Below are positions 7,800-55,100 of a stretch of DNA of 64,000 nt, in pieces. The notes under the pieces were generated by a model. It was not told the DNA's origin. It worked only from the letters and a program-made list of their open reading frames with translations, and searched no databases. The stretch is from Tetrahymena elliotti 4EA. Its lineage: Eukaryota > Ciliophora > Oligohymenophorea > Hymenostomatida > Tetrahymenidae. Each line of letters begins with the position of its first letter. Position 1 is the first letter of the stretch. The DNA lies in assembly GCA_000231825.2 (NCBI GenBank), contig JH720375.1, forward strand, positions 190,422 through 254,421, read 5' to 3'. The translations under genes and the position numbers were made by a program.

Positions 7800-9239
7800 T
7801 CATAAAGCATTGTCAAATAAACTTTCTACTAAATGACAGGGTAAATCCTTTCTAAATTAAGTGTAATAAAGAGATTTTTAATAAGCTTGTAGGAAATAGA
7901 TTATATTTTTTCTAATTTTAGGAAGTGTAATTAATGTAGATAGATATTTTATGGTTTCGTATTTCTCTGAATGAGATGATATTATAAGCTGTGTCAGTAA
8001 TTTCAGATCAAAAATTGAATTTCTTAAAATCTTCATTCCACTCCAAGAAACATATTCATGAACATATATTTCAAGCTGTTATAAGTGAGTTATTTTACTT
8101 ATTTGGTTCATAAATAGTTTTAGTAAATCTGGATTGGCTCTGTTTTAGTCAATTTCACTATGAGAATTATATCCAGCAGCACTTACTTAGTGCTTAATGT
8201 TTCTTTAGTCTTAAAACCCAGTACCAAGATTAAAGAAAGATAAACTTAATGATTTACACTACTTAAGATTGCTTAAAAATTCTGATAAAGCATTAACTGC
8301 TTAATCTTACTATTACTGATTGAAGTAACTCCATCTTTAAAAATTCAATTCACACACACTTAGCTAGTGAGCACAACTTGCTGAAAGAGAGTTACAAATC
8401 ATAGCTAGGTGCTTGAATTCTATATCCTCCCACCACCTTAGATTTAATGATAAGTGCTTCAAGTATTTTTTGTTTGAAAGAGCCAGACAAAATTTTTTAG
8501 TTGAATTGCTAGGGTCTTTAATGTTCTATCTGAAAAATGAGAACCAGCAGCCCAATTTCAATTTTAATTTTCTTAAAAGAGTCAATTTTTCCAATCCTTC
8601 ACAGAATCCTATAAATCCATCTTCATTTATCTATTTTTTTCTTTCTGAGCTTGGATCATCTAAATCTAACTCAAGCAAAGTTAAACTCTACATATTTTAA
8701 AGTATACTGCCTAAGCTTCTGACTGCCTTGTTAGTAATAGAGGGGTTCAGAGAACGATTTGAGCTGATAATTGAAAGTTCCTAAAGGTTCTATTTACCCA
8801 TTTCAATAAGAACACCTTCGATATTTGGAATGACCATAAAAAGTAAACCCCAATGCTCTATATTAATGTATAAAGATTTCAGCTTATTAAACCTGTGAGA
8901 TATCCCTTAAAGTAAATAATTTAGCTCATCACCACCTAAACCAGCTTCATCATTTTAATTATTTTAAAATACTAAAGCTATCCTTTGTTTATCTCTACTG
9001 TATTGCTTTATTGCCTTTTAAAAGTGCCTCAAAATATCATCTGATATTTCTATCCACTTAGGGAGAACTAATGATAGTTAAGGTACTTTGACTTCATTTA
9101 TTTTATTTAAAGCATCATTTTAGTTAACCAAATGATGGGAATGAGAGCTCTCATCTTTGATATTTTTACTGTTCTCTTCTTGAAATTAAGTTAAGCTGTA
9201 TTCATTTTCTAAGATTTCTAAGTTTTTAATTATATTCAT
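7800..9239 (-). CDS. Leucine-rich-repeat (RNI-like) protein
   Basis: Intronless frame of 480 codons, ATG 9239 to TGA 7802-7800. After a polar N-terminus of about 60 residues (MNIIKNLEILENEYSLTQF) it carries irregular leucine-rich repeats typical of ciliates: NKLKSLYINIEHWG, LTLLELDLDDPSS, LLRKLKLKLGCW, LKHLSLNLRWWEDI, CKSLSLSFFNLG, THLQQLEIYVHEYVSW. Repeats are about 30-50 residues apart, as in ribonuclease-inhibitor-type folds. There is no kinase, F-box or signal sequence, so the protein is likely a cytosolic binding scaffold; its partner is unknown. It ends with a helical stretch (KIRKNIIYFLQAYQKSLYY). Five small-RNA-like elements lie just upstream of its start, on the other strand. Confidence 0.75.
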
Positions 9240-9537
9240 CCTTAGTTGTATTTCTATATAAATGATTCCGAATTATAACCAATTTTTGATGCTTTATTAT
9301 TTAAATTTTTGTTGGTAAATAACAAATTTAGTATTATATTAACTAACAAAAAATATTATTGCGCAAAATTGATGATATGATATATTATAAAAAATGATAT
9401 GTAAACATTAATAGTAATACAATTCTTTTAAAGATCAGATGAATTTATATTTTAAACAAATTTCATTTTTTTTTTATGAATAAAATCCATTATATTTATA
9501 ATTAATTGTTTCAAGCTATATATATCATTACAAAAAA

Positions 9538-9548
9538 CCCATAAAAAA
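9538..9548 (+). promoter_or_regulatory. Conserved upstream box of element 1
   Basis: CCCATAAAAAA begins 61 bp before the conserved AATGT of element 1. The same spacing recurs in all five copies, like a proximal sequence element of ciliate small-RNA genes; the promoter role is inferred. Confidence 0.5.
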
Positions 9549-9598
9549 GCTCAAATAAGATATTTTCTTCATTTAACCATAAAATAGAAAATATAATT

Positions 9599-9669
9599 AA
9601 TGTCAAGTCAATGAGTTACTTCATCTTAACTTTTGGTCAAAATTCTTTACTCATGGCGCTGAACTTTTT
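9599..9669 (+). ncRNA. Putative small structured RNA, copy 1
   Basis: First of five tandem elements sharing AATGTCAAGTCAATGAGTTA at the 5' side and TTTACTCATGGCGCTG at the 3' side, followed by a T-run (TTTTT). ATGAGT and ACTCAT can pair as a six-bp stem around a variable loop. This copy is the most divergent at its 3' end (GAACTTTTT instead of GTACATTTT), which breaks the outer AATGT/ACATT pairing seen in other copies. No open frame is shared between copies, so a non-coding RNA is more likely than a peptide. I do not recognise the RNA family. Confidence 0.5.
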
Positions 9670-9818
9670 AGACTTTTTATGAGAAAGAATTAAAAAAATA
9701 TCAGTAAATTTCACAAAATTTTATGCTTTGTGTTTTAAGTATAAATAAATCAAATTTGTTTAATAAGATTCATTAATGTAATCAAAGAACCTCAAATAAA
9801 TAAATTATATTAAATAAA

Positions 9819-9829
9819 CCCATAAAAAA
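9819..9829 (+). promoter_or_regulatory. Conserved upstream box of element 2
   Basis: CCCATAAAAAA, identical to the box of copy 1 and again 61 bp before AATGT. Confidence 0.5.
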
Positions 9830-9879
9830 TTACTTTTTAAATATTTTATTAATTTTAAAATAGTATTCAAAATTTGATT

Positions 9880-9953
9880 AATGTCAAGTCAATGAGTTAC
9901 TTCTAAACATAAAATATGGTTATTTCTCTTTACTCATGGTGCTATACATTTTT
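9880..9953 (+). ncRNA. Putative small structured RNA, copy 2
   Basis: Same conserved ends as copy 1 with a different loop (AAACATAAAATATGGTT, which can itself form a small hairpin). The 3' part reads ACTCATGGTGCTATACATTTTT, with two substitutions relative to copies 3 and 5, and is followed by a long T-rich stretch. Both AATGT/ACATT and ATGAGT/ACTCAT pairings are intact. Confidence 0.5.
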
Positions 9954-10071
9954 AAAGTTTTTTTAATTTAAAACTAAAATATATTTAGAAACATTTTTAA
10001 TTGGTGATTTACAAGTTAAAATTTACAAAAGAAATTAGGTATAAAATCTTAATTAAATTTTTTGACTTAGA

Positions 10072-10082
10072 ACCATAAAATA
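10072..10082 (+). promoter_or_regulatory. Conserved upstream box of element 3 (one substitution in the CCC)
   Basis: ACCATAAAATA stands where CCCATAAAAAA is in copies 1 and 2, again 61 bp before AATGT. Confidence 0.4.
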
Positions 10083-10132
10083 ATAGTTTCAAGATATTTT
10101 CTTAATTTAAAGGTAGGATTCAATACTTAATT

Positions 10133-10202
10133 AATGTCAAGTCAATGAGTTACTTCACAGAAATCTTTGTTCATTTAATTTACTCATGGCGCTGTACATT
10201 TT
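10133..10202 (+). ncRNA. Putative small structured RNA, copy 3
   Basis: Carries the consensus ends in full: AATGTCAAGTCAATGAGT ... ACTCATGGCGCTGTACATTTT. The central loop contains ACAGAAATCTTTGT, able to close a short hairpin. Both stems can form. It is followed by a T-run. Confidence 0.5.
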
Positions 10203-10308
10203 AAAATTTTTTTCTAGAATCTAAAATAGATTTAAAAAAATTATTTTATTTTTATGTAAATTCAATCTATCCGAAAATACTCATTAATAAATACAATTAT
10301 TAAAAAAA

Positions 10309-10319
10309 GCTATAAAAAA
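10309..10319 (+). promoter_or_regulatory. Conserved upstream box of element 4 (degenerate)
   Basis: GCTATAAAAAA replaces CCCATAAAAAA, keeping the 61-bp spacing to AATGT. The A-run is retained and the C-run is mostly lost. Confidence 0.35.
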
Positions 10320-10369
10320 TTCTTTTCAAGGTATTTTCTTAATTTAAAGGTAGTATTCAACACATAATT

Positions 10370-10439
10370 AATGTCAAGTCAATGAGTTACTTCACAGAAA
10401 TCTTTGTTCATTTAATTTACTCATGGCGTTGTACATTTT
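10370..10439 (+). ncRNA. Putative small structured RNA, copy 4
   Basis: Nearly identical to copy 3, including loop and about 50 bp of 5' flank, so the two are a recent duplication. One difference in the body (GGCGTTGTACATTTT) lies in the single-stranded part of the proposed fold. Confidence 0.5.
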
Positions 10440-10532
10440 AAAAATTTTTTAAAAAGAATTTTTAAAAATAGTGATAGATTTAACAAAATAATTTGTTTTA
10501 AAAAAACCCTTTTCAAAATTAGTTTGAAAAAA

Positions 10533-10543
10533 CCCCTAGAAAA
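10533..10543 (+). promoter_or_regulatory. Conserved upstream box of element 5 (divergent)
   Basis: CCCCTAGAAAA at the 61-bp position; the C-run and A-run are kept around a changed centre. Confidence 0.35.
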
Positions 10544-10593
10544 TTACTTTCAAAATATTTTGTAAACTTAAAGAAAATACTCACTATTCAATT

Positions 10594-10665
10594 AATGTCA
10601 AGTCAATGAATTACTTCTAAATCAACAATGTTCTATTTCTTTACTCATGGCGCTGTACATTTTTT
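10594..10665 (+). ncRNA. Putative small structured RNA, copy 5
   Basis: Consensus ends with one change: ATGAAT instead of ATGAGT, giving an A-C mismatch in the inner stem. The loop differs (AACAATGTT can pair locally). The 3' end ACTCATGGCGCTGTACATTTTTT is consensus and runs into T5. Confidence 0.45.
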
Positions 10666-11486
10666 CATTTTTAAATAAAAGTTTAAAATCTCAGAAGTAA
10701 AAAGAAATACTGTTATTTAAAGGCAGATAAATCAAATTAATAAAATATTATTATTGTATGATACTTTAAATAATAAATTTACACTCAAAAAACCCAAAAA
10801 AACCGTTTAATTAAATATTTTTTTAATAAAAAAGATAATATCTAATCTTTATAAAATAGCTTTAATTAAATTAATAAATAAAATTTATTTTTATTTCAAT
10901 AAATATTCTCTATAAAAGAAATAATCAAATTATAGAAAGAATTTTGATAATAAAAAAAAATGATAAATTAAAAAAAGAAATTTTTTAATATTTAATTTAA
11001 AGATTTGTGCTCATGTTTTTCTTAATATATTTAATGACAGACTATCATGATCAGTTAAAAAAAATTATTTTAAAATCAAATAATGATAACCACAAAATAA
11101 TTTCAATTTCATTGATGATTATTTATTTAAATAAATGAAAATTTGCTTCAATTTTGATAAATTAACCAAATAAATTAATGTATTTTATCAATAAACCATT
11201 ATTAAATTATTAAACATAAATATAAAAATATTTCTTTTAAGTATTAATGAACTTATCATAAATATTTTTTTCATTGAACTATTGACATGAAATAAAGCAA
11301 ATTTTTATTTTATTTTTTAGTTTTAGATAAATTATTTTAACATAATAAATGTAATCTTTAACTTTATTAAACACAATAATAAAATTCAAATATTCATAAT
11401 TGATTTGAAGAACAACTTTAATTATGGCTTACTTGATTAATCTTTATTTATTTAGCACAAAATATAAAGCCTTGAAAATATATCTA
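10666..11486. other. Intergenic, one orphan box
   Basis: Very AT-rich. A further AAAAAACCCAAAAAAACC stretch near 10787-10804 resembles the box upstream of the RNA elements, but no conserved body follows 61 bp later, so it may be a dead sixth unit. Confidence 0.4.
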
Positions 11487-13672
11487 TCAAACAATAGAAT
11501 AATAAATTCTTTTATCTATTTCTGTTAAATTTTGATTTTCATTACATTTCTCAATGAATTATTTAATTTATTTGATCTGCATTTAACTAGATTTTTGTAT
11601 AAAAAGTTGCTTCTAGAAATGATTTGTTTTTTTAGAAAAACCTTTTTTAATTAGAAAATTTTATGAAAATAAAAATTATTAAAAATAATTAATTTACTTT
11701 GATTTAGTTTATACTCTTATTCTATATCAATACCTTTAAAGTAATCTTATGAAGCCCCAATCATTTAAAGAGCAGCAAATTAATCTTCACTCAGAATCAT
11801 CATAATTGCTTTTTTCAAGAGCAAAACTTCATTATAAAAGCTTAAAAAATCTAAACTTTAGTTAATTTATCCTAAAATACAATCATTCATATTCTAATCA
11901 ATACCAACTGACTCTACATATTTCTTTTTATCAAACAATCTATTTTATAATAATATTTGAAACAAATAAATTAGTTAATAAGATAAAAATAAAAAAATAG
12001 AAAAAATATACTTGAACTTGAATAAAACTTTTTCAAGACTTTTGCAGATATCCAAATTATTTTTAGCATCCTATCTTAGCTCTATACTTCTTTCAATGAT
12101 TTCATTCTTCTAATTTATCAAATTATTCTACTGATCTTAAATAGTAATTTAATTGAAGTCTGGATTTAATTTTCTTTCAGTTGAAACAGGTGAATTAATC
12201 AAAGAAACAGGACATGAGCCTTCATTTTTATTTTGCTTTTTATTGATTCTCTACTTTTTTCCTTATTCATTTAGTTTTAAAGTTGGCTGCTTAAAGTTTG
12301 TTAATTATACTAACTCAGCTTTCTAAAATTCACTTCTATCTGAAATGCCGTTTGATTTTCTACAGGGATCAAAAGGTGACTATTCATTTCTAAATTCTTC
12401 TAAAACTTCATCCTTTTAATCTGGTTAGTCTTAAATTGAATTCACTTATGATGAATATAAACTTAACTTTTAAAAGCAAGATTTTGTTAGAAGCTATGGA
12501 ACTTAAATAGGTTCTTGATCATCACTTTCTTACGTTTTACGGTCAATAATTTAGTCAAGCTAAAAAATGTCAGAGAATTAATCGATTTTATTCAGTTAAA
12601 GCATCTTGAAAAAAGTTTGTTAATAAAAAGTTTTTAATATCAGGATAAATAGTTCTTCTTTGATAAGGTTCTATGCCATATACCTAGCTAAAACTCCTAA
12701 CCCCATCATAATTGCTAAAGCGCTGTTGATTTGAGCAAGGATTTCAGGATAGGTAGGGTACTGAATATCAATATATGAAACAGACTCGTCCACATCAAAA
12801 ATAAGTTACATAAACATACTGAAACCTGACTATTAAACTGTTTGCAGATCTAATCCTTATGAATTAACAGTATATGTAATAGGAGACATATATTTCTGTT
12901 CATGTTAAATTAAGGGACCTGAATTAATTACTGTTACAGATTTTTTAGCCTTATATTCCAAAAATTATACATATTTGATTGACATATAAGCATATTGATG
13001 TCTATAATTTACTTGCATTTATTGAGAAGTTGTATTAAATTAAGAAGTGAATAATTTTACACTTACTAAATTGTTTAAATTTGCAATGTAAGCATCTATT
13101 TCTTCTGGAGCAGCACAGTTATCAGGTATAGTTGTTTTATAGTAATCAACATCTTAACATTTGTAAGCAAATATAGTTATTTAAGAGAAAATATTATTGA
13201 TATTTCCAGTGGTTATCTTTTAGTCAGGTACTTTTGAATAGTCTAAGCAGTTATATCTTTCTAGATTAGGGTTTTTACATGGTGAGATATCTAAATTTAT
13301 TTGAAAAAAACCAGTGGTATTAGTAAATTAGTAAAAGGCTAAAAAGATTATATAAGTTTTATTAGCTTTAGCCTACAAGGTTTCCAAGTTACCAGCTCCT
13401 CTATATTCTTTCAATTAGAATGCAAAATAATCGTTTTCCAGATGAATATCAATGTCTTCATTAGTTATAAAACTTTGTGATCTATACTTAGGTTCTACTT
13501 AATTCCCTAGGTAGAGGTAAGTTAAGTAGAAGAAGTATGTGAAGGATACACCTATAATACAGACAGATAAAAATGCACCTAAATATGTTCTCTTACGAAG
13601 TGTTTACTTTGAGGAGTTAAACTAAATAGGTTAAGAAAATATATCAAAACTCTTTATAAAATCAGAAATCAT
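11487..13672 (-). CDS. Ciliate-type membrane protein of unknown function
   Basis: Three exons, 13672-12012, 11939-11698 and 11641-11487, total 685 residues. Both introns (GTATATTTTT...AAATAG and GTAAATTAAT...AAAAAG) are in phase. It starts MISDFIKSFDIFSQPIQFNS, then TLRKRTYLGAFLS and a first membrane helix (IGVSFTYFFYLTYLYLGN). A large probably lumenal region contains Cys-bearing motifs (NLDISPCKNP, RYNCLDYSK, AYKCQDVDYY). A second helix follows (LAQINSALAIMMGLGVLARYM), then a long cytosolic tail ending IEKCNENQNLTEIDKRIY. This start, two-helix layout and C-terminal block are typical of a large family I know from Tetrahymena and Paramecium predicted proteomes, whose role is unknown. A decayed partial copy lies at 14985-15335. 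Confidence 0.8.
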
Positions 13673-14984
13673 CTTTTATTCTTTTTACTTATTTTTTTTG
13701 AAATAATTTATTATTCTTATTTACTATTGAAGTAGAACATAAATTTATTGATAAAGGAAAATTAATAAATTATAGGCCTAAGTTATATTACTTATTTCAA
13801 AGTAACTATGCATGATTAAAAAACTTTTAGTTATCTATTCAGACTATTTAGTGTATTATTAAAATAAACTTTCAAATAGAATTTCAATTAAATTTTTTTG
13901 TTAAAAAATCCTAAATATTTTGTACATCAAATGAAAATATTAAAAATATTTAATGCACATAAGAAAGATGTTAAACAAATATAATTTTTTGTCTGTTAAT
14001 TTATTTATTGATAATTTTATGGAATAAGGTAGGTCTCTAGTTTAATTATTTTTTATTATTCTTATTAGATAATTGCTTATTTTATCTTCAAGCTTTTATT
14101 CTGAAAACTTTATTCCAGACAATTTATTTAATTTTAATTAATGTAATCTTTGGAGCTAAAAAATTTAGAGTCGAGAAAAACTTTTTCTGATAAATAAATT
14201 ATTTATCTTTACCTTGAAATTCTGGATCAGTTAAAAAAAATTCAATCATATTTAATGTTACAAAAAAAAATATTAAATTTGAATGATTCATTTAAAAGGG
14301 AAGTACTTTAAAGTAGAAATAATATTAATATAAGTTTTGAAACCAAGCTTTTCTGTTTTTATTTTACTTTCTAATTTTAAAAAGAGCCAAATTCTATTTA
14401 AATTTTTCATTTTATTAAAAACTTATGGAAGTATTATTTTATTGAAATTTACATTTTGTAATTAATTATTTAAAATAAAAAACTCTGTTATTCTTAAGAA
14501 TTCTTTTTGGATTTATTCTTTTTATTAACAAAGGTAATTAGTTAGTTTTCTTTTTACCAAAGACAAAAAAAAGCCTGAATAATAAATTAAAATTTAGAAT
14601 AAACAAAAAATAACTTCCATGTACTAGAAAAAATAGTTCTCTAAAAGTTGCATAACATTTAATCTATTTTAATAGAAAATCATCTTACTTTAAATAATCA
14701 AAATTCTTTCTCTTGAAAAGTCATGTCCCAACTATTTTAAATTTATAAACTAACTCTTAAAAAACTCAATAAAATTAAAAATTTTAAGCTAAAAAATTAA
14801 AAGTACTTGACATAAACTAAGCTAAAATAAATTTAATTCATAAAATTGTTCTTAACTTTCATTTAAAAATAAGTATCAATATGAAAGAAATAATCTAATT
14901 AATAGGAATTGATAATAATTTTAATTAATCATGACTATCAAAAACATTTTAAATTATTTATACTCCCAATTCTAATCCTCTATT
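13673..14984. other. Intergenic
   Basis: AT-rich spacer upstream of the membrane-protein gene, ending at its pseudogene fragment. Nothing else recognised. Confidence 0.5.
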
Positions 14985-22310: not shown

Positions 22311-23831
22311 TCATTGTTTTTCTACATTTTAAATAAAATTTTCCCATTTTAATACATTTCCTTGCTCATCCCCTGTAATTAAAACATCTCTGACTTAATC
22401 ATATACAGCCATTAGAATAGTAGCTTTTGAAGGAGTATGAGAAGATAATTTAAGAGTGATTGATGGAGTGTTAGCTCTTAAAGGATGAATAATATTTTTG
22501 ACATCCCAAACATAAATTTATCCATAAAAAGATCCTGCTATTAGGTAATCTGCTGTTAAGGAGAATTGCTTTTTATTGCTTGAATTTATAAATACTTTTT
22601 TATTGTACTCTAATATATTAAAAATTTTCTTTTTTTCAGGGACAACAATGTAAATATTATCATTTTAAGAGGTGATACTAGCTGCAATCATGATTTAGTC
22701 TAAGGATATTTTTTTATCAGTGATTGCTTTTTTTTCTTTAAGAATAGTAAAACAAATAGAATCAATAGAAGGGTCTTTAGAATTAGATTCATTTAAATTA
22801 ACTTCATAAATAACTTCACATTCAAAAGTAATTTATTGTTCTTTTTAATTTAATGAAAATTCAAGGATTTTAATACTTCCATCAGAAAATCCTGCAATAA
22901 TCTGATAATATTCCTAACTATTGTTGTATTAATTTTTATTAGTCATAACTCTGTAATTTAAAATCTAAGAGCAAGTTATATTTGTTGTAAAGCGAAAAGA
23001 CTTCACCAGTTATTAACTATCTATTTTCCACATCTTTATGATTCCTTTTTAAGAGGAGGAAAGAAAGATATTATTAGATATTAACTATAAGTATGTGATA
23101 TTTTCTGTATGGGCAGGGATTATTGCTATTCTTTTTAAAGGCTCAAGAGTTTATTTAAATCCCCAAATTTCTATTTCTGTGTTATTTTCTGTGCACCAAA
23201 TAAGCTTATCATCATAAAAACTAAAATGAGTGAACGTTTAACTAACAGAGTTTGAGTATATTTTATTAATAATTGCTCTTTTTTCTATATTAAATAGTTT
23301 TAAAAGTGGGATAGGCTCACCTTTCTCTGATTGCATCACAATATCTTAGTCCTAAGAATAAAAATATTGTTAAACTTGAGGAGCAATTGTAATTCTTGTA
23401 AAGGGAATTGATTTAGGATCAGTAAATCTTTGATTTAACTCTGTTTAAAACAATTCTGTTTTTAAGTTAGTTTCTTCTCTCAAATTCTTTGTTTCACGTT
23501 CTAATTGCTGAACCTTATTTTCTAATTGCTAAATTATTTTCTTTTACTCAAAATTTTCAGTCTCAATAGACTCTTTATATTCCATATTTATGCTTTGCTA
23601 AAGTTCGCTTTATTCAAGGCTTTCTTATTTATCTTTTCCTCTTTTCTATAACTCCTGCTAACTTTTTAAAAGCTTAGATATTTTAAAGCTATTTGAAATT
23701 ATTTCTTCATATGGCAAGCTCTGCATATGTTTTATGAGATTAAGCTTTTAAATTATTCTTTCAGTATCAACATTCAAAGGTTTTCTTATAATGTCTCTTG
23801 GCTACCTTCCATTATTTGTTTGATTTTCCAT
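22311..23831 (-). CDS. WD40-repeat protein with N-terminal coiled coil
   Basis: Intronless, ATG 23831 to TGA 22313-22311, 506 residues. Residues 1-55 are MENQTNNGRQPRDIIRKPL and a short helix; about 60-130 are a strong coiled coil (KIIQQLENKVQQLERETKN). The rest is a diverged beta-propeller: KLIWCTENNTEIEIWGF, AHTENITYLQLISNN, GIIKMWKIDS, IIAGFSDGSIKILEFS, YLIAGSFYGQIYVWDVKN, and the closing VLITGDEQGNVLKWENF. The W/D-type strand ends and GS/GD turns mark five to seven blades, several without the canonical WD dipeptide. It is probably a cytosolic scaffold or E3-like adaptor; no RING or F-box is present. The partner is unknown. Confidence 0.82.
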
Positions 23832-24762
23832 CCCTTAATTTTAATCTATCGATATTTAAATCACTATTCTATATTTATTGTTTTTTAAAAAAAGATTTCC
23901 TTTGATTTCTTTCCTTGATAAATATTCTAGCTGTATACTACAAATTTTTATTAATAATTAAACAATTATAAATATTGCTTGCGATTCTGATCTATTTGAT
24001 AGTTCGGAACTTTTAAAACTCAAACAAAAATATCTATTTTAAAAAATATTTTATTATCTTAAAAAAAATTTATTTCTAAAAAATTAATAAATATTTGATA
24101 ATTAAATAGAATATTTAATAATAAATAACACTTAATTTTTCAAATAAATCATACAATTATAAATTCCTTAATTTAATTGAATCTAATTGATGGGTTTTAT
24201 GACTGTTACTAAAGATAACATTAAAGTGATAAAATTAAAAATATTCTATAAAGTGTAAAAAATATTTTATATCTTGCATTTTTAGTAAAGATACAATGCT
24301 TTTTTATTGTTAGATTATGTGTAAAAAATATATAGAGAGTTAAAGACCATTAATTGAATTGAAAGATATTATTTTTAAAATTGAAAAGCTAGTTCAGAAA
24401 TTTTAGAGTATCTAGGAAAAATGAATGAATGCATATTATCATGAATAATATCAAATAAATAAATAAAAAATATTTACATGAAATAAATGATATGGGAAGG
24501 GAGAAAGTATTTATTTGTATGAAAAAGGGGAATAAACAAACAAATAAATAAATAAAATGAGAAGAAAGAATGAGAGAAGAAAGCTTTGATTATATTGATA
24601 GATGTTTATTTATTTGATTTGTTTTCTTGTTAATTACCATGGAAAATGAAATAAATCTTGATTGTTTGTTGTCAAGAAAAAAGAAAAGAAATCTAAAAAT
24701 AATAAAATTAAGAGAAAAAAGTCTTATTTGATAATTAATAAATAAATAGTAAAAGGCACACA
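23832..24762. other. Intergenic, divergent promoters
   Basis: AT-rich spacer between divergent genes. A purine-rich stretch with AAATAAATAAATAAA repeats lies near 24450-24580. No coding signal. Confidence 0.5.
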
Positions 24763-34899: not shown

Positions 34900-37800
34900 T
34901 CAATTTTCCTTAATTTCTTCATAAGTGTAAACAACACGGTCGTTAACTAAATCATCGTTATATTAGGCAAGCTTTTGTTCAAGAGTTTCAAAAAGCTTAT
35001 CTCTTGGGCAGTTTTCTTCTACTTTAGTATAGGTGCACTAATATTAATAAAATAAATTTAAATAAAAGTTTATTTAAATTAAAAATTGTTTTTTGATAAA
35101 CTTTTGCTCAAAAGAAATTAAATTTCATAAAAATTAAATTATTTTTTTAGAGAATCATTTTACCTTAACTTTAACAAAGCCTCCCTTAATTTCTTCTTCA
35201 CCTAACCAGATGGTAAAAGGAATTTGATTTTCATAAGCATAATCTAATTACTTTCTAGGTTTAGGTTTTTCAGAATAAATAATTTCAGTTTTAAGTCCAC
35301 GAGACCACATTTCATTAACTAATCTAAGCTTTTCTTTGCAAAGGCCGTTACCAACTGTGCATACTAAAAATTCAGTTTCAGTAGCTCTAATAGATAATTT
35401 TTTCTTGTATTGTTCTTCCAAAATGTTGAAAACTCTTTCAATACCAACAGAACCACCAACTGAAGGAATTTATTTAGAAGAGAACATACCAACTAAACCA
35501 TCATAACGGCCACCACCACCGATGGAACCAATATTAGCACCTTCCAAAACTGCTTCGTAAATCATACCTTAATATAAAATATTTAATTTAACAACAAGAT
35601 GAAATTTAGAATTTTCTTACCTGTGTAGTAATCAAGTCCTCTAGCTAAAGAAAGATCGAAGCTAACATTAGCAAGGCAATTCATAGCTTCTAAATAATCA
35701 AAAAGAAGGGTCATTTCTTAGACACCTTATCTACCAGCTTCAGAAGCATCAAATAACTTGTCTTCCTTAATTTTTTATAATAACTCAAAAGGCTTACCCT
35801 TATAGGAAACAAAGTGTCCTAACTTATCAACGATAACAGTATCAAGACCCTTATCTTCAATTAATTCTCTTCTAACTTCTGTCCAAGGTTCCTATTTGAT
35901 AAAATTGTAATTATTAAATAATTATATTATGCTTTAAATTCTTTACCTTATCAAGCTTATCGATAGAAGAACAAATGGTTTTGAATTTAGAGTGAGGGGC
36001 ACCAGCTATTTCAATCATGGCATCCAAAATTTTACGAGAGTTAACCTTAATTATGAAGGGAGAACCTAATTCTAAAGCTTATAAGATATCATTAACTACC
36101 TTAATAATTTCAGCATCAGGAATCATAGGATCATAGTTACCAGCAATATCAATATCACATTGGTAAAATTCTCTATATCTTCCCTTGGTCATATTGGGTT
36201 AATCTCTTCTGTAAACCTAAAGAATATTAAAAATTATTGAATATTAAATTTGATTAATTTAATTTACCTTAGCAATGTGGAATCTCTTGAAGTTTGTAAG
36301 AGATTAAGTAGCAAGGAAACGAGCAAAAGGAACTGTAAGATCATATCTAAGAGATAAGAGTTCACCACCTTAATCATCAAGATCGTAAATTAATTTAGAG
36401 TCATTACCATACTTACCAGTAAGGGTTTCTTTGAGTTCAAAAACAGGGGTATCAATTTCAACTGCGCCGTGTTGAAGTAAAATACCTTAGATAATCTTGA
36501 AAACCTTTCTTTTGATAGCCATTTAAAGAGGGTTGAAATCTCTTGTTCCTTTAGGGATTTTAGGTTTACGTCTTTCTTCATTACGAGGAGCAATCAATTC
36601 TTCAACTTAAGCTAAGAGCTAGTTATTATTTAAGCTGAAATAGTTTTAGTTAATATTGTCTAAAACTTCCAAACATTTTTCTTCACCTTCAATCTTAAAC
36701 TTTTCTAAAATTTCATTGAAGATTACTTCTGTTCCCTTACCTAATTGTAAAAGTTTAACTTCTTTCTTCTTCTTTTTGCTATCATCTTCTTTTCCTTTTT
36801 TGTTCTCAGTTAATTGCTTGTTGAGAGCTTGTAAAGTGTGATAAGAAATAAAGAATTCATATTGAATTGCTTAGAAGAGATAAGAAACATATTTATCAAA
36901 TTAAAGAGCAAGAGCAAAATTATCTCCAAGAGCCTTATAATTTCCAGTTAAGAAGCTAAAATTGAGAGATGAATTAAAAGCTACAACATTGTTAAGAAGA
37001 GTTTAAACTTTATTTTCTAAGAGTCCAGCATTGGAAACAATTCTATTCAAAGTGTTAATAGCTTAAAGACTGATACTACCAAGTAAAGAAATCAATAAAT
37101 TATTCAAACCCATAAAGTTCTTCAATTCAGTTTAGTTATTAGCACCAGTTTAAATTTTAACATCATCGCTTTCAACAGCTAATTCATCAACTAAGAAATC
37201 AAGCAAAGATCTATTAATTAAATAATATTTTTATAAGATACCTTTAAATAAACAATTAAATGCAATAAAATCTGCTTTTTCTTTTTCATCTCAAATGTAA
37301 ATAATTTTTAGCTTTGTTAAATTTAATTTTTGTTCTTATCTTAATAGATAATAATAAATCGGAAGTTCTTAGCTTTATTTGTTCATTTTTGTTTTTATTT
37401 TCTTTAAATGTGCAGAATGAGTACACTTAACTTTTTAAAATTATTTAAATAGTTATAAGCAAAAAATGTTTTTTACTGTAAGCCATTTCTAACAGTTCCT
37501 GCAATTTCAATCCAAGAGGTGATTTCTTGGGTAGCTTTCTTTTTAGATAGTCTGCTTGAGAATAATAAATTTTAGATTTCAGTAGCAAGGAGAGAAATAC
37601 TTCTTTGTAAGCTTCTCTTTTCAGAATAAGCAGTTAAGAATTATTCAGTATTAATATATCCACTTTCACAGAAGAATGCATAACTTACACTACCTAATTT
37701 CAAGACATTCCTATTTCATAAAAACAATAAATTTTACAAGAATATTCTAAATATTAATATTCATTAAGTCTTTTATTTTAAAAAACTGAAAAACTTAGAA

Positions 37801-39581: not shown

Positions 39582-39965
39582 TTTTTCACTCTGATTTTTG
39601 TTTATTAAAATAATTCTTTTACACAATTCAAGTTATTGGTTTTGATTTTAAAATTTAAAGTAAATTTGCAATGTTTTGATTAATTCGTTATTAATTTATG
39701 AATTTTACAAAATGCATCATTCTTTAGATGTCATATTAAATAATATGCAAAACACATTATTTCTATCAATCTGTCTATTTTTCAAACAAAAAATTTTAAT
39801 TAAGAAATCTTTTACAAATAAAGTTATCAGATATTTTATTTTTTTGTTCATTTTGTAAATTTTAAGCATTTTGTTTTAAAAAAATTTTTATTTTTTATTT
39901 ATATCACAAAATTGTTCATTTAATTAAATTTCTTTTTCTTTTTATAAATTAAAACAAAAAAGATT
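39582..39965. other. Intergenic
   Basis: AT-rich spacer between the hypothetical gene and the tRNA pair. No features seen. Confidence 0.5.
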
Positions 39966-40038
39966 AGCCCGCCGTGGGGCTCGAACCCACGACCACAAGA
40001 TTAAGAGTCTTGCGCTCTACCGACTGAGCTAGGCGGGC
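39966..40038 (-). tRNA. tRNA-Lys (CTT), copy 1
   Basis: The reverse complement folds as a full cloverleaf: acceptor GCCCGCC/GGCGGGC, D arm GCTCAGTCGGTAGAGC, anticodon stem CAAGA/TCTTG with loop CTCTTAA (anticodon CTT), and T arm GTGGGTTCGAGCCCCAC. No intron. CCA is not encoded. The A and B boxes of a Pol III promoter are internal. It abuts the assembly gap on its 5' side. Confidence 0.95.
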
Positions 40039-40039
40039 T

Positions 40040-40187
40040 NNNNNNNNNNNNNNNNNNNNNNNNNNNNNNNNNNNNNNNNNNNNNNNNNNNNNNNNNNNNN
40101 NNNNNNNNNNNNNNNNNNNNNNNNNNNNNNNNNNNNNNNNNNNNNNNNNNNNNNNNNNNNNNNNNNNNNNNNNNNNNNNNNNNNNNN
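40040..40187. other. Assembly gap, 148 Ns
   Basis: Run of N from 40040 to 40187, bounded on both sides by identical tRNA-Lys genes. The true length and content are unknown. Confidence 0.99.
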
Positions 40188-40260
40188 AGCCCGCCGTGGG
40201 GCTCGAACCCACGACCACAAGATTAAGAGTCTTGCGCTCTACCGACTGAGCTAGGCGGGC
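40188..40260 (-). tRNA. tRNA-Lys (CTT), copy 2
   Basis: Identical over its whole length to copy 1, same strand, on the other side of the gap. The 3' flank on the minus strand is lost in the Ns; the 5' flank (TTGTAAA...) differs from anything visible at copy 1. Confidence 0.93.
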
Positions 40261-40764
40261 TTTACAATCTATATTTAAGAATTTTAAGTATCATTTTTTT
40301 AATTTCTAGCTTTTTAGATCAATAAAAATTAAATAAATTTCCATATTTTAAGCTCATAATCTAAACAAATTATAAGATAAAAAATTTAATAATTTTTATT
40401 ATTTAATATTCTAATATTTATTTGATTTCTATTATCCATAAATAAAGTGAAAATTGAGAATGAAATACTTTATCATTTATTTTCTTATCAGGTTATTTTA
40501 TTTTAATAGTCAGAAAAAGAAGGAAAGGTAGGAAATTCATATCATTTTTGGTAGAATATTGATCTTGAGATTTATTTTTTTTATTTAATTAAAGTTGGAT
40601 ATGTTTATTACAGATAATTGTTTGTTTAATAAAACAAAAAAAATATTATCAATAAAATTAAATAAAAAATTAAATTTATAAAATGATTTAAAGAAAATAA
40701 AAATAAAAATGGGATAATAAATATCAAAGGCTTTTATTTTAATTCATTAACATAACCAAAAAAA
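40261..40764. other. Intergenic
   Basis: AT-rich spacer between the tRNA pair and the Arf pseudogene. No features seen. Confidence 0.5.
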
Positions 40765-49100: not shown

Positions 49101-52100
49101 TGATTTCTATTATTGGTTCAAATGAAGCCCTTTTGTTAAAGATGACTGAAAATCTTGTCTTAAAGCATAAAGAAGTATCAAGGAATGCTATAACTTATGA
49201 GAGGTCAGGTACTGGTTAATTTAATGAAGCTGATATGCTCCAGTAAATATTTCTTTTGGAATTAGAAAAATTTATTTTTAAATCATTTTTATAAAAGAAA
49301 ACAATACGGAATCCCAAAAAAAAAAACAAATGATTTATCTCACAACATTGAGTTGTGCAGCAATCTCATGAATTTCTTTATGGATTTAGTATATGATCCT
49401 ACAGCTCCTTTAAAGGCAGATTATTATAGATTCCTTAGCTCTATTTGCAGATTTAAGAATGATGGCATATCATTAAATTAAGAGAGTATCTATAAGCTTT
49501 ACAAAAGCATTCAAAACTCAAATTTATATGCTTCTGACTTTGTAGAAAAATTCAAAAATGGAATTGAATTTCCAGAAGATCCTGAAGATGTATTATTTAT
49601 TATTTGTTTTCTTCATATTCACTAATAATATTTTTTTAATATAGGTAAAATAATTATATCACTAATTGACTTTCCTTTCTGATTTGTCATTTGGCAGAAA
49701 TTTCTAGTGGCTGAGAGAATTGATTATTTATTTTAAATTTGACTATTTACTCTCTAAAATTTGGGAAAACATAAGAACTAACTCAACTATTTCTTTAAGT
49801 AGCTGTTTCAGCAAATTAGCTATGGCTTTATACATAGATCATTACCCCTTATATCGTATACATAGACCTAATTACTGTAGGATTTTCCATGATGTAATTT
49901 TTATTTAATTATTTGTTTTAAATTTTTTATCTTGTTATCATCTTTTCGGTGAAATAAAATAATAAAAATTAATAATATTTTATTTATTTATTTTTTAATA
50001 ATTAATCTCTTTTTTTTAATTTGTTTTATTTTGTGATGGTATGAATAGAAAAATTTATTTTATTTATATAAAAGACTAAAAAAGAGAAATACATCTAAAG
50101 ATTTTAGGCAAATCAAGTTGATCTGTATCAAGGACTTTTAAATAACTTACAGAATTATTTAAAAAATATTTCTGAAAAAGTAGAGTAAGAATTTGGTAAT
50201 CATTAGGCAGCTCCTTAAAAGAAGGGTAAAGAAAATGGGGAATTACAGAGATTTGATACAGAATCTAAAGACACCAACAAATCTGTGGGTGCTTAAATTT
50301 TAAATGAAGATCTGCTCTTTTAATCAGTCAATATGCTAAATTTACTGATCGATTTAGATGTCTTCAACATATTAAACAGAATTTAAGACTATCAAAATAT
50401 TATTCAATATTTGTTAAAAATCTTGATTTATGATAGAATGAATATCACATTCAGTTCTACAGCATATTTTAACTCGAAATCTATATCATAAAAAAAACAA
50501 GATGAAAAGAAGACTGATATTAAAAAAATAGTTAATATTGACTAATTTGTTAAGTTAGATGATTTTAATATATTTGGTAAGAATTATTTAAACACATACA
50601 CAAATTAATTTATTATTAACAAAAAAATAAAAGATGATGATGAAAATGATGAAGATGAAGAAGAAGAAGATGAGAACTTGGAAGAGATTAACAAAGCTTC
50701 ATCTAAGATTGATGAAAATTAATTGTATCATAATCCGTTGATTAGAAGTTATCTTAAGTAAATATTATTTAGAATCAAAAATAAAAACTAAAAATATTTT
50801 TTTTAAAGAATGAATTCTTTGTTAGAGAGCTAAATTCAAAGTGAAGAGGATGGCACCTAATTAGAAATAAATATAAAACTTTAAATATGTGATTTATTTG
50901 ATAAACTACTTGATATGAGACAAGACTATCTTATTGAAAATACAATTTAATGGTTTTATGGAAATATTGGTACTATGGTGAATGAAAAAGAGCAGAGTAA
51001 AATAGAAGAAATAATCTTAGATGGAATTGCTAAAATTTTACCTCCTATTCCTAAAACTGGTATCATAAATATAGACGAAGAAATAGGTAAGCCAAAAGAA
51101 GATAAATCATTACTTCAGATGCTCTCAATCGAGAAAAAAAGAGCTTATAAATTTGAAAATTTCTGTCCAAGTAATTGCTTTGATTAACCATTATTTTATA
51201 CAAATTTACAATCATTTTGTTAAAATAAATAAAAGGTCAATTCCATGATTTGGATACATGGCTCAGTATTTCATATGTAAAGAATGATGACGAACTAACC
51301 AATCCATCTTTTTCAGTTTTACCATATTTAATGCAAAGCTTTATCTTGATGCACAATCCTGAATTAGAAAAGAAGAGTTTGTCTTTGCTGATGAGATTAT
51401 TTAACTAACGTCAAGAATTACTTTAAAATCTAAATAAGCTTGAAGTCATATTTGATAAGCAAAAAGCTATTCTTTACATAATAATGACTAAAAATATTCA
51501 TGAACTTACCCAACTGATTGAGTAGACAGAGGATTGGTTTGAAGAGTTTAGCAAAGATAACTAGTCTTTTGATGAAAATAATAAGGAAGCTGTAAGAGTT
51601 ATTGAAATTATTAAGAATCTTAAAAACTGTTTCTATGATGATTTGGAATTAGATGAAGTAAATCAAAATATTAAACCAAAGAATTCAAAGAAAATCATAG
51701 ATAAAAACAAACAAAAAATATTCAATTACTTAAAAGCCTATATACCTATACTTGATCTCATCAAAGATGGTAAATTAGTTTTAAACACTTTATTTATTTG
51801 TTAATTATTTTTTAAAAAAACCTGAAAATTAATTTGATATTGTAATATGAAAAGGTATGCACCATTTTAATGCTGTTATGTCTGATTATTAATAACCTTA
51901 AAAGAAGAAATAAATGATTTACAATTTGTTCAAGGATACATATGAGCTATTGATCAATTTCTGTATGAATAATGAAGATAACTAAAACCTTTTATATGAG
52001 TCTATTAATGCCTTGTTACAGTACTTACATTATGATGTTGGACAAATTACTCTTCTTTGTGAAATTTTCAGAGACAATATTAACTTGTTAAAAGACAAAT

Positions 52101-55100
52101 AAAATCGTTAAATTATTTAAAGTCTAATTGATCTTATTTTGGACTATGGAAGACAACATAGAGTATTGGATTTCTTCATAATCTTTTAAAAGTGTCAGAA
52201 TACATACATATTTGATAATTAATTGCTAATTCTTAATACCTTTTTACCAATAACTGATTTTGGTGAAGATGAATTAAGACTACTATACTCTTACCCTAAG
52301 TAAAGTGGAGATAGATCTCAAATTATTTTAGATTTTAAAAACGAAGACAAAGATCATAATGAAGTACCCTTCATTGATTATTTCCTCCAAAAAAAGACAG
52401 CAAAAAAAGATGATACCTTTTTCTACCATGCAAAACTTCTTAACATGCTTCTTTAAACAACATACACTCAAGTAATAGATGATAAATAAACTAGTCTCAA
52501 CTAATTGAACACAAAATAGAACTTTAACATATCTATAGCAAAACTGAAGCAAATAGATAGCTCATTTTTAAAAGATTGGCTTATTGAGAATGATAATTTC
52601 TTAAAGGAAGCTACTGAAATCAATCAAGAAGAAGAAAATTAAAATCCTCCAATAAAAAATGAAAATATACTCATTTTTACTCCCAATAAAAAAATTAATC
52701 AAGGTTCTGTTATTTCTAATTTCTCTACTAAGTTTTAGCTTTCTAAAGATGCATAGTTCTCACAAAGAGGTTTTACTCATTTAAAACCATACATTTTAGA
52801 TTTTCTTAAAAACGTTTACATTTTAGGAGAAAGCTAGTCAGGTAATTAATTATTTAATCAATAAATTTACTCTTTTTTTGCAAAATTTATTTTTAGCAAT
52901 TCAAAATTATATAGTAAATTCATTTAAAAAACTTTAATCTAATCATTGATTCTCATTTATTTTTACTTAATTTTAAAAGTTTATCAAGGAGAAATTTAAT
53001 CATCCTATCAGTTCTTAGAAAGAGTCATAAATTTTGAGTAAAATAGAATTAAAGATATAAAATATGCTAGTGAAGTAACAGAATAGTATGCAATCTATAT
53101 TTTTGATCATGTAATTCCCTTTATGTAAGCTTACTTTGATAAATACCTTAGTAATGTGGTACACTATTCAGAGAGAGATAGAAAAGATCTATAAGTAAGC
53201 ACAATTACATAGTAATCAAAAACAAAATAAAATTTTTTTTTAAATAAAGGATATGAAATTATTTGCAAATGAACTTAAAAGAAACATAAGTATTTTTGAT
53301 CATAAATTAGAATTTGAATAAAATGCAAGGGTTATAGAGTTTTTAAGAAAAGTGTTGTAAGATGAAACTATTTAAAATGATATTATTAGAAACAAAGAGG
53401 TCTCTTATTAATATGATCAAAGCTATGAAAATGCAGATCAAATCATTGAGAGCAACATCTTATAAAAAGAAATTAATTTGGGTATGTAAAAATCAGAAAG
53501 CAAGAAAAATGAAGATTCTAATCTCTTGGTAAATTAAAATAATTTTATACTAATCTAATTGATATTTTTTTTAGGAAAAAATTGAACCTAAGGTTGCAAA
53601 AAGTAAATCAGCATTCTCTCACATAACAAATATTGCGGCAAAATTGAAAAGCATAAATATATTGAAATAATTTTCATCTAATAACAATGCTAATGCTGAA
53701 TTTGATAGTAAAATTTCTGATAGTTCTTTGAAGAAGAAATGGAATACTTTCTTGAGATGCCTAAACCAAACTGAAGAGGTAGAGGAATAGATAGATTTAG
53801 AAAAAATGGCTCTAACTGAAGCTTTAATTGAAGTCAAGTAGCTTATACCGGAAGATGTTTACAATTAAATTGAACCTAAGCCAGATCGCTTTGCTCTCAT
53901 TAAAAAATCTATTGTTTTCCTATAATATGCTGTAGAAGACATAACAAATAAAGTAAATTTTAAAGAAAATTTATTATTTACATTAAATATTATTCTCAAA
54001 TAAAAGAATACAATTTAAGTCCTCCTTAAAGTTTTAAGAATCATGGTTGAAAAATGTTCTGACGTGCCTGAGCAAGAAGAGAAAATGCAAAATATTCTTG
54101 ATTAATTAGGTGCTACTCGTATGGTATTGTATGTTATTAGTGAAAACCATAAAAATTTAGATTCTGAGCTACTTAGTGAATTCATTAAGTTCTTATGCAC
54201 TTTACTAAATGATGGAAATAAAAAAGTTTAAAAGACAATATATGAATTTTACATCAGCCATCAAAAATCTGAAATGATATTCAAAAGATTTGATAATATC
54301 ATCAGAAAATAAATATCACAATTGGAATTATAGGTAAACATTTCTTTTTTTCTGAGTTATTTTAAACTAAATTTTAATAAGAAATTATTGATCTTTATGT
54401 AAAAATTAATTAAAAATTTTGTTCGTTCTTATGAAATTTATACTTATTTTGTTTTATTCTTTAATAGGCTAAGAACTAAAAATTAAAAAAAATGAGTGGT
54501 TCAACCAGATATATGAGTTCAAGTGTAGGATCGGGATCAGAAGATGAATAAGAATTTGTCTTTGATAATGATATTGAAGTAAAACTATTGGATGATGTAC
54601 TTACCTTCTTGCAGCTTTCGTGCGAAGGACATTATTTAGATTTATAAGATTATTTAAGACAGCAAACAAACTCTAGAAATAATTTTGATATGATTGATGC
54701 TGTTGTTGATTTACTTAGGACATATTATTATGAGGCAAGGACACAAGTAAAATCAATATATACAAAATAATTTTATTAATTCATTATTTTTTTGAGTGTA
54801 CCTAAATTAAACATTTTAAATTATAGAAAATGTATGATAATATGTGTTAATGCTTTGATACAATAAATGAAATTGTTTAAGGACCTTGCCCTGAAAATTA
54901 AATAGCTGTTTCTGAAAGTAAGTTCTTAGAAATTGCTAATGACTTACTTGCTTCAAATAAACAAAAGCAAGAATAAATTTAAGCTACTTAAAGCATAAAT
55001 TCGAAATCTCCAAGACAAAGCATAAGATGTAAGAAAACAAATATCTTATTTTATTCTAAACTATTTCCTAAAAATTAGATAAAAAGCATGTGAATAAGAA

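Follow-up and report, generated by a model that had tools for sequence, protein, structure and literature searches.

A tandem array of predicted small RNA genes in Tetrahymena elliotti belongs to a multigene family with a vault RNA-like handle

Introduction

Vault RNAs have been described from animals and trypanosomatids (PMC9326685, PMC9179338), and a review characterises them as RNAs with a conserved handle and a variable centre (PMC9179338). In mammals, vault RNA is bound by TEP1, a protein recognised via its likeness to p80, with TROVE as the RNA-binding part; p80-type TROVE proteins were found through telomerase (PMC7916137). The vault RNA of Trypanosoma brucei was proposed from its secondary structure and short similarities at its ends, together with RNA polymerase III (Pol III) and TEP1 co-precipitation data (PMC9326685). 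Y RNAs are similar to vault RNAs, and the trypanosome vault RNA may do the work of a Y RNA (PMC9326685, PMC7916137). For ciliates, a review mentions sequences resembling MVP in Paramecium and in two species of ciliates (PMC7916137); in the literature searchable by title and the start of the abstract we found no report of a ciliate vault RNA, and novelty is claimed here relative to that literature. The present work concerns a stretch of 64,000 nucleotides from Tetrahymena elliotti 4EA (assembly GCA_000231825.2, contig JH720375.1, positions 190,422 to 254,421 of the forward strand), hereafter the window, in which a reading of the sequence alone had singled out five tandem copies of an element of about 70 bp as candidate small structured RNAs. 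On sequence grounds, the array is a set of tandem small RNA genes that forms part of a multigene family spread over five loci, and the family is likely to be a diverged homologue that would work like vault RNA.

Results

Tandem copies in the window

All five elements were recovered at the coordinates given by the sequence-only reading and on the plus strand, with starts at 9599, 9880, 10133, 10370 and 10594. The predicted genes occupy 9599..9669 (copy 1, about 71 nt if the first four T of its end are included), 9880..9952 (copy 2, about 73 nt), 10133..10202 (copy 3), 10370..10439 (copy 4) and 10594..10663 (copy 5), the last three being about 70 nt each. Four copies carry the shared left arm, the 20-mer AATGTCAAGTCAATGAGTTA, unchanged, and the remaining one has a single mismatch in it. 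Three copies have an exact version of the shared right arm TTTACTCATGGCGCTG, which is one base off in the copy at 10370 and two bases off in that at 9880. The proposed pairings were borne out as well: the nine-pair inner helix is complete in copies 1 to 4 and retains eight of nine pairs in the copy at 10594, while the outer AATGT/ACATT stem has all five pairs in four copies and four of five in copy 1. At least four T follow the stem in all five copies. The description of the sequence between copies as almost fully diverged proved too strong, because a stretch of 139 nt (family D1), which begins some 60 bp before each RNA and contains a promoter, can be aligned across all five copies, with agreement of 60–93% between them.

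A family at five loci

To describe the family, a covariance model (R1) was built from 16 copies and run over 22 sources; the genome searched comprises 90 Mb in 134 contigs, denoted here by C-numbers, with C86 as the window locus. R1 yielded 28 matches above 45 bits at five loci, with 5 copies at C86, 5 at C19, 16 at C28 and one each at C18 and C20. Sixteen of these are the training copies, which match by construction, and 12 are new; the window copies, all of them training copies, score 78.5, 77.8, 82.6, 79.7 and 79.1 bits in order of position. Seven weaker matches of 14–31 bits lie on C28 (six) and C18 (one). On C28, a match of 14.3 bits was retained, as a matter of judgement, as a decayed copy because it lies inside the cluster and keeps TTACTCATGGC; the window matches at 524 (14.1 bits) and 8237 (12.7 bits) were taken as noise. 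Within about 10 kb on either side of the C18, C19, C20 and C28 loci there was no R1 match above 13.5 bits.

A gapped pattern, RAGTTACWTC-N{12,42}-CTCRTGGY, found 19 sites in the whole 90-Mb genome, 18 of which fall in C19 (3), C28 (11) and C86 (4, that is, four of the five window copies), and the reversed control pattern found none. The one unrelated site, on C57 (L072), was not counted, as it has no R1 match and, by eye, no promoter element or family-like flank. Because the pattern is blind to long-loop copies and to substitutions within the motifs, and parts of the sequence are given as N, the 28 copies represent a lower bound. Among individual copies, L009:2001-2074 (C19:230600) carries a short tandem duplication in the 3' handle (GGCGCATGGCGCA), and L012:8735-8848 and L012:1541-1673 (C18) and L014:738-841 (C20) have variable centres of 55–84 nt, compared with 18–32 nt in the other good copies.

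Fold and covariation

The RNA is predicted to fold into a panhandle. The 5-bp outer stem is followed on the 5' side by three unpaired bases and then by the inner helix, in which GUCA or GCUA pairs with UGGC (4 bp), a bulged A intervenes, and UGAGU pairs with ACUCA (5 bp). This helix is closed by UACUUC and a centre of 18–65 nt, variable in sequence and size, and on the 3' side a 5-nt linker leads back to the outer stem. Predicted RNA lengths across the 28 copies range from 70 to 112 nt, with a median of 73. In the 16-copy alignment, 98.7% of the cells are paired and 4 pairs are changed on both sides, values that none of 500 shuffles reached. Over 25 of the 28 copies (L009:1044, L009:2001 and L010:9128 were dropped for indels in the 3' arm), 335 of 350 cells were paired and 18 were changed on both sides, and 0 of 2000 reshufflings of the arms reached either the pairing or the double-change count; since most changes separate clusters, the independent compensatory events are few. 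Taken with the gapped-pattern counts and the promoter and T-run data given below, this covariation led us to reject chance or a simple repeat as the origin of the elements.

Comparison with Rfam

At the Rfam gathering score, the window scan returned two tRNAs and no match to the five copies. When all 4227 Rfam families were compared with short stretches around the 28 copies at an expectation value (E) ≤10, eight matches were obtained, six of them to Vault (RF00006), the sole family hit more than once at this weak level. The six matches score 24.1, 21.5, 17.9, 16.6, 16.5 and 14.2 bits, come from C19, C28 and C20, span model positions 1–99 on the correct strand and reach a best E of 0.027. Five of these six copies have the GCU form of the handle, a form also seen in copies without a match. 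The remaining two matches, to Plastid-rpoB and a Yersinia small RNA, both fall on one further copy and are weak and unrelated. Among the 28 copies, no match to the Rfam Y RNA models was found at E ≤10. In 20 control stretches beside the copies there was no Vault match and two U4 matches (E 2.8 and 6.4), so that, in an equal search, the best Vault match is roughly a hundredfold better than the control matches. A laxer scan of the window cluster gave one unrelated match, pntA, and that of L009-L011 gave one Vault and one SNORD77 match; the Vault stretch alone adds CRISPR-DR65 at E 8.

The likeness extends over the whole model. From its 5' end, the Rfam Vault model consists of the outer stem, an unpaired stretch, the GCuc-A-GcGG helix, UUAC, uUC and a variable centre, followed by CCgCggGC, the GCUgU linker, the outer stem and UUUU. 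Aligned end to end, the ciliate copies place AGCUAAUGAGUUACUUC against AGCucAGcGGUUACuUC and CUCAUGGCGCUGU against CCgCggGCGCUgU; the stem letters differ yet pair, and the unpaired letters largely agree. Compared with the printed Vault consensus, 16–22 of 30 letters are identical in 25 copies, relative to a mean of 7.9 and a maximum of 19 for 20,000 letter-shuffled arms, for stretches picked after the Vault alignments were seen.

The sequence-only reading had proposed a new family with a consensus unlike that of any RNA family known to it. That no copy reaches the gathering score of any Rfam family agrees with this proposal; the claim of novelty is supported only in part, as the fold and motifs are those of Vault RF00006 and 6 of 28 copies weakly match it. 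Likewise, the conserved internal loop, for which a guide function or a protein-binding site had been suggested, corresponds to the vault RNA handle, which would favour protein binding.

Promoter and 3' end

Of the 28 copies, 21 carry a proximal sequence element (PSE) of the small nuclear RNA (snRNA) type, ACCCATAA, between -66 and -56 with at most one mismatch; in 14 of them the match is exact, and one of the 28 could not be read. The background is 0.56% of random window positions with at most one mismatch and 0.04% for exact matches. The TATA-type motif TTTATAAA, with at most one mismatch at -40 to -26, was found in 18 of 28 copies, compared with 9% at random; in many of the copies at the other loci it lies near -30. 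In 27 of 28 copies, four T follow no more than 8 nt after the stem. Six of the seven weaker family copies lack a PSE within one mismatch. The window copies have weaker promoters, with a plus-strand PSE at -62 that is exact in copies 1 (9537..9544) and 2 (9818..9825), has one mismatch in copy 3 (AACCATAA, 10071..10078), and is weak, with two mismatches, in copies 4 (AGCTATAA, 10308..10315) and 5 (ACCCCTAG, 10532..10539); TATA within one mismatch was found in two of the five, at -35. A further ACCCATAA at window position 37108 was set aside, as no family-type RNA was seen behind it by eye.

The same PSE precedes other small RNA genes of this genome. It lies at -64 in U6a, at -63 in U6c, at -49 in a poor U6 copy and at -59 in the telomerase RNA gene (154.8 bits, ciliate type). 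Of these four readable genes, three have TATA, at -30, -30 and -26, whereas it is unclear by that measure in U6a; the readable genes end in a T-run. The telomerase RNA differs in places from its T. thermophila counterpart, which makes a species other than T. thermophila likely. The PSE is also found at -61 to -65 in all five readable copies of U2, a gene transcribed by RNA polymerase II (Pol II), and a TTAATTAATCAAACAAA-like box stands just behind all five readable U2 3' ends; a loose match to this box stands behind 2 of 28 family copies. As separate observations, four U6 matches (L023-L026) lie within 3.6 kb at C14:1220602-1224155, the fourth of which, at 38.9 bits, is below the cut-off, with its 5' part kept and its 3' half diverged, and U2 match clusters on two contigs (L077-L082; C93, C10) have in common a PSE near -64 and the TTAATTAATCAAACAAA-like 3' box.

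TROVE proteins and other features

Two TROVE proteins are encoded (E 2.5e-120 and 7.9e-101), which are 67% identical to each other and whose gene frames carry many TAA and TAG codons. These codons and the telomerase RNA mark the genome as that of a ciliate, probably Tetrahymena or a near relative. One of them comprises 719 residues from the first in-frame methionine, which we take to be the length of Tetrahymena p80. No other Pfam family was found in either TROVE frame, and the further domains of TEP1 are not in the same frame. A sequence comparison of the TROVE proteins with the PDB gave no match other than one to a TROVE domain-containing protein, across some 80 residues. Within the window, a 722-aa frame at 22311-24479 on the minus strand has weak matches to WD40 propellers, including two TEP1 propeller models, all below the curated cut-offs; it is probably a generic WD40 protein.

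The array is flanked by two large open frames on the minus strand, at 7800-9239 and 11051-13960, neither of which has a Pfam match. Elsewhere in the window, a 471-aa frame at 51857-53272 on the plus strand contains a RIH (RYDR_ITPR) domain above its cut-off, and a perfect tandem array with a 30-bp unit in 3.2 copies lies at the window edge (1-95). The two tRNAs of the Rfam scan are minus-strand tRNA-Lys genes (anticodon CTT) at 39965-40039 and 40187-40261. Their legible sequences are identical, and the stretch that separates the two genes includes masked or unknown bases.

Discussion

The explanation that we consider probable is that these RNAs are diverged vault RNAs of a Tetrahymena-like ciliate, transcribed from an external promoter instead of internal A and B boxes and bound by a TROVE protein. 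The vault assignment follows from the agreement of the handle architecture and of the unpaired motifs with the Rfam Vault model. RNA polymerase III would make the RNA from the PSE-type external promoter and end at the T-run; one of the two TROVE proteins would bind the handle, as suggested by the situation in animals and trypanosomes; and the variable centre may serve as a copy-specific surface for other partners, so that one protein could display many different loops. More tentatively, ciliates might possess a large multigene family of vault RNAs in which the tRNA-like internal promoter has been replaced by an snRNA-type external one, and these RNAs might be the natural ligands of p80-type TROVE proteins.

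Several results weigh against a vault RNA assignment. The best copy, at 24.1 bits, misses the gathering score of 34 bits for RF00006; 22 of 28 copies, including all five in the window, have no Vault match at E ≤10, so that the link to Vault runs through the family; and a whole-genome RF00006 search at E ≤10, in which 49 of 5050 candidates were scored, returned no match. Recurrence of one family is by itself no proof, because the controls gave two U4 matches. Box B was found in 0 of 28 copies and box A in 3, all near the 3' end, in a search that found both boxes exactly in tRNA-Lys. With lengths of 70–112 nt and a median of 73, the family is shorter than vault RNAs, for which 84–140 nt is given (PMC9326685). 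The folding energies of single copies were not outstanding in any of nine tested (z +0.4 to -1.7), and the MVP profiles PF01505 and PF11978 gave no match, the controls being likewise silent. Finally, the PSE could not be accepted as proof of Pol III, since all five readable U2 genes carry it too; the sign of Pol III is the T-run, from which, as an indirect sign in 27 of 28 copies, transcription of the family by this polymerase is inferred. Together with the covariation and the PSE, the T-runs support the earlier proposal that the elements are genes for small structured RNAs whose ends resemble those of Pol III genes. Because the cut-off is missed, the genome-wide search is silent, A and B boxes are lacking and the length is shorter, we do not file the family as a member of RF00006.

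One alternative is an origin unrelated to vault RNA, namely a ciliate-specific Pol III RNA whose handle came to resemble that of vault RNA by chance or convergence; the missed cut-off, the silent genome-wide Vault search, the lack of A and B boxes and the weak one-family recurrence of U4 in the controls all fit it. We nevertheless regard such an origin as improbable, considering that the agreement involves unpaired letters and the bulged A across the whole Vault model and that the identity of the arms to the Vault consensus exceeds that of shuffled arms. A relationship closer to Y RNAs is also unlikely: here a ciliate counterpart of Y RNA would dock through its handle on a Ro-like TROVE protein and act in RNA quality control, with no link to vaults. 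This would suit the two TROVE proteins, whose frames lack the further domains of TEP1, and also the likeness of Y and vault RNAs, the trypanosome vault RNA possibly acting in a Y RNA role (PMC9326685, PMC7916137), but the 28 copies gave six Vault matches and no Y RNA match at E ≤10. That the elements are a tandemly amplified non-functional repeat, or resemble a short interspersed nuclear element, we hold to be very improbable. Tandem arrangement and the seven weaker copies, six of which have no PSE at up to one mismatch, might be expected of a repeat, whereas compensatory changes and a kept PSE would not, and the elements are not dispersed: 18 of 19 pattern sites fall in three clusters, and the surroundings of four loci, about 10 kb in each direction, contain nothing of the family that scores above 13.5 bits.

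If the family does consist of diverged vault RNAs, vault RNA would be present in another distant branch of eukaryotes, and what has been kept of it would be the handle and not the internal promoter. It would also provide a testable RNA partner for p80-type TROVE proteins, the ciliate relatives of the vault-RNA-binding protein, and as ciliates are amenable to tagging and gene removal, vault RNA function would become testable there. Should these RNAs be the ligands of p80-type proteins, this would explain why p80, originally purified together with Tetrahymena telomerase, resembles the vault protein TEP1, and it would place the origin of vault RNA deep in eukaryote history.

Compared with Vault RF00006, the family shares the panhandle, the outer stem, the internal loop, the helix of 4 bp, bulged A and 4 bp (5 in the family), GUUACUUC, the variable centre, GGCGCUGU with its 5-nt linker and the U-tail; it differs in scoring below the Rfam cut-off, in having a PSE promoter without box A or B and in its at least 28 copies. 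With U6 and telomerase RNA genes it shares the ACCCATAA-type PSE, a likeness of promoter type only, the RNAs being unrelated. Y RNAs are small Pol III panhandle RNAs bound by a TROVE protein (PMC7916137), as is predicted for the family, but none of the 28 copies matched an Rfam Y RNA model at E ≤10. The T. brucei vault RNA (TBsRNA-10) is likewise a protist RNA recognised by its structure and by short conserved stretches at its ends, a likeness by description only; there the RNA is made by Pol III and has a TROVE protein as its partner (PMC9326685).
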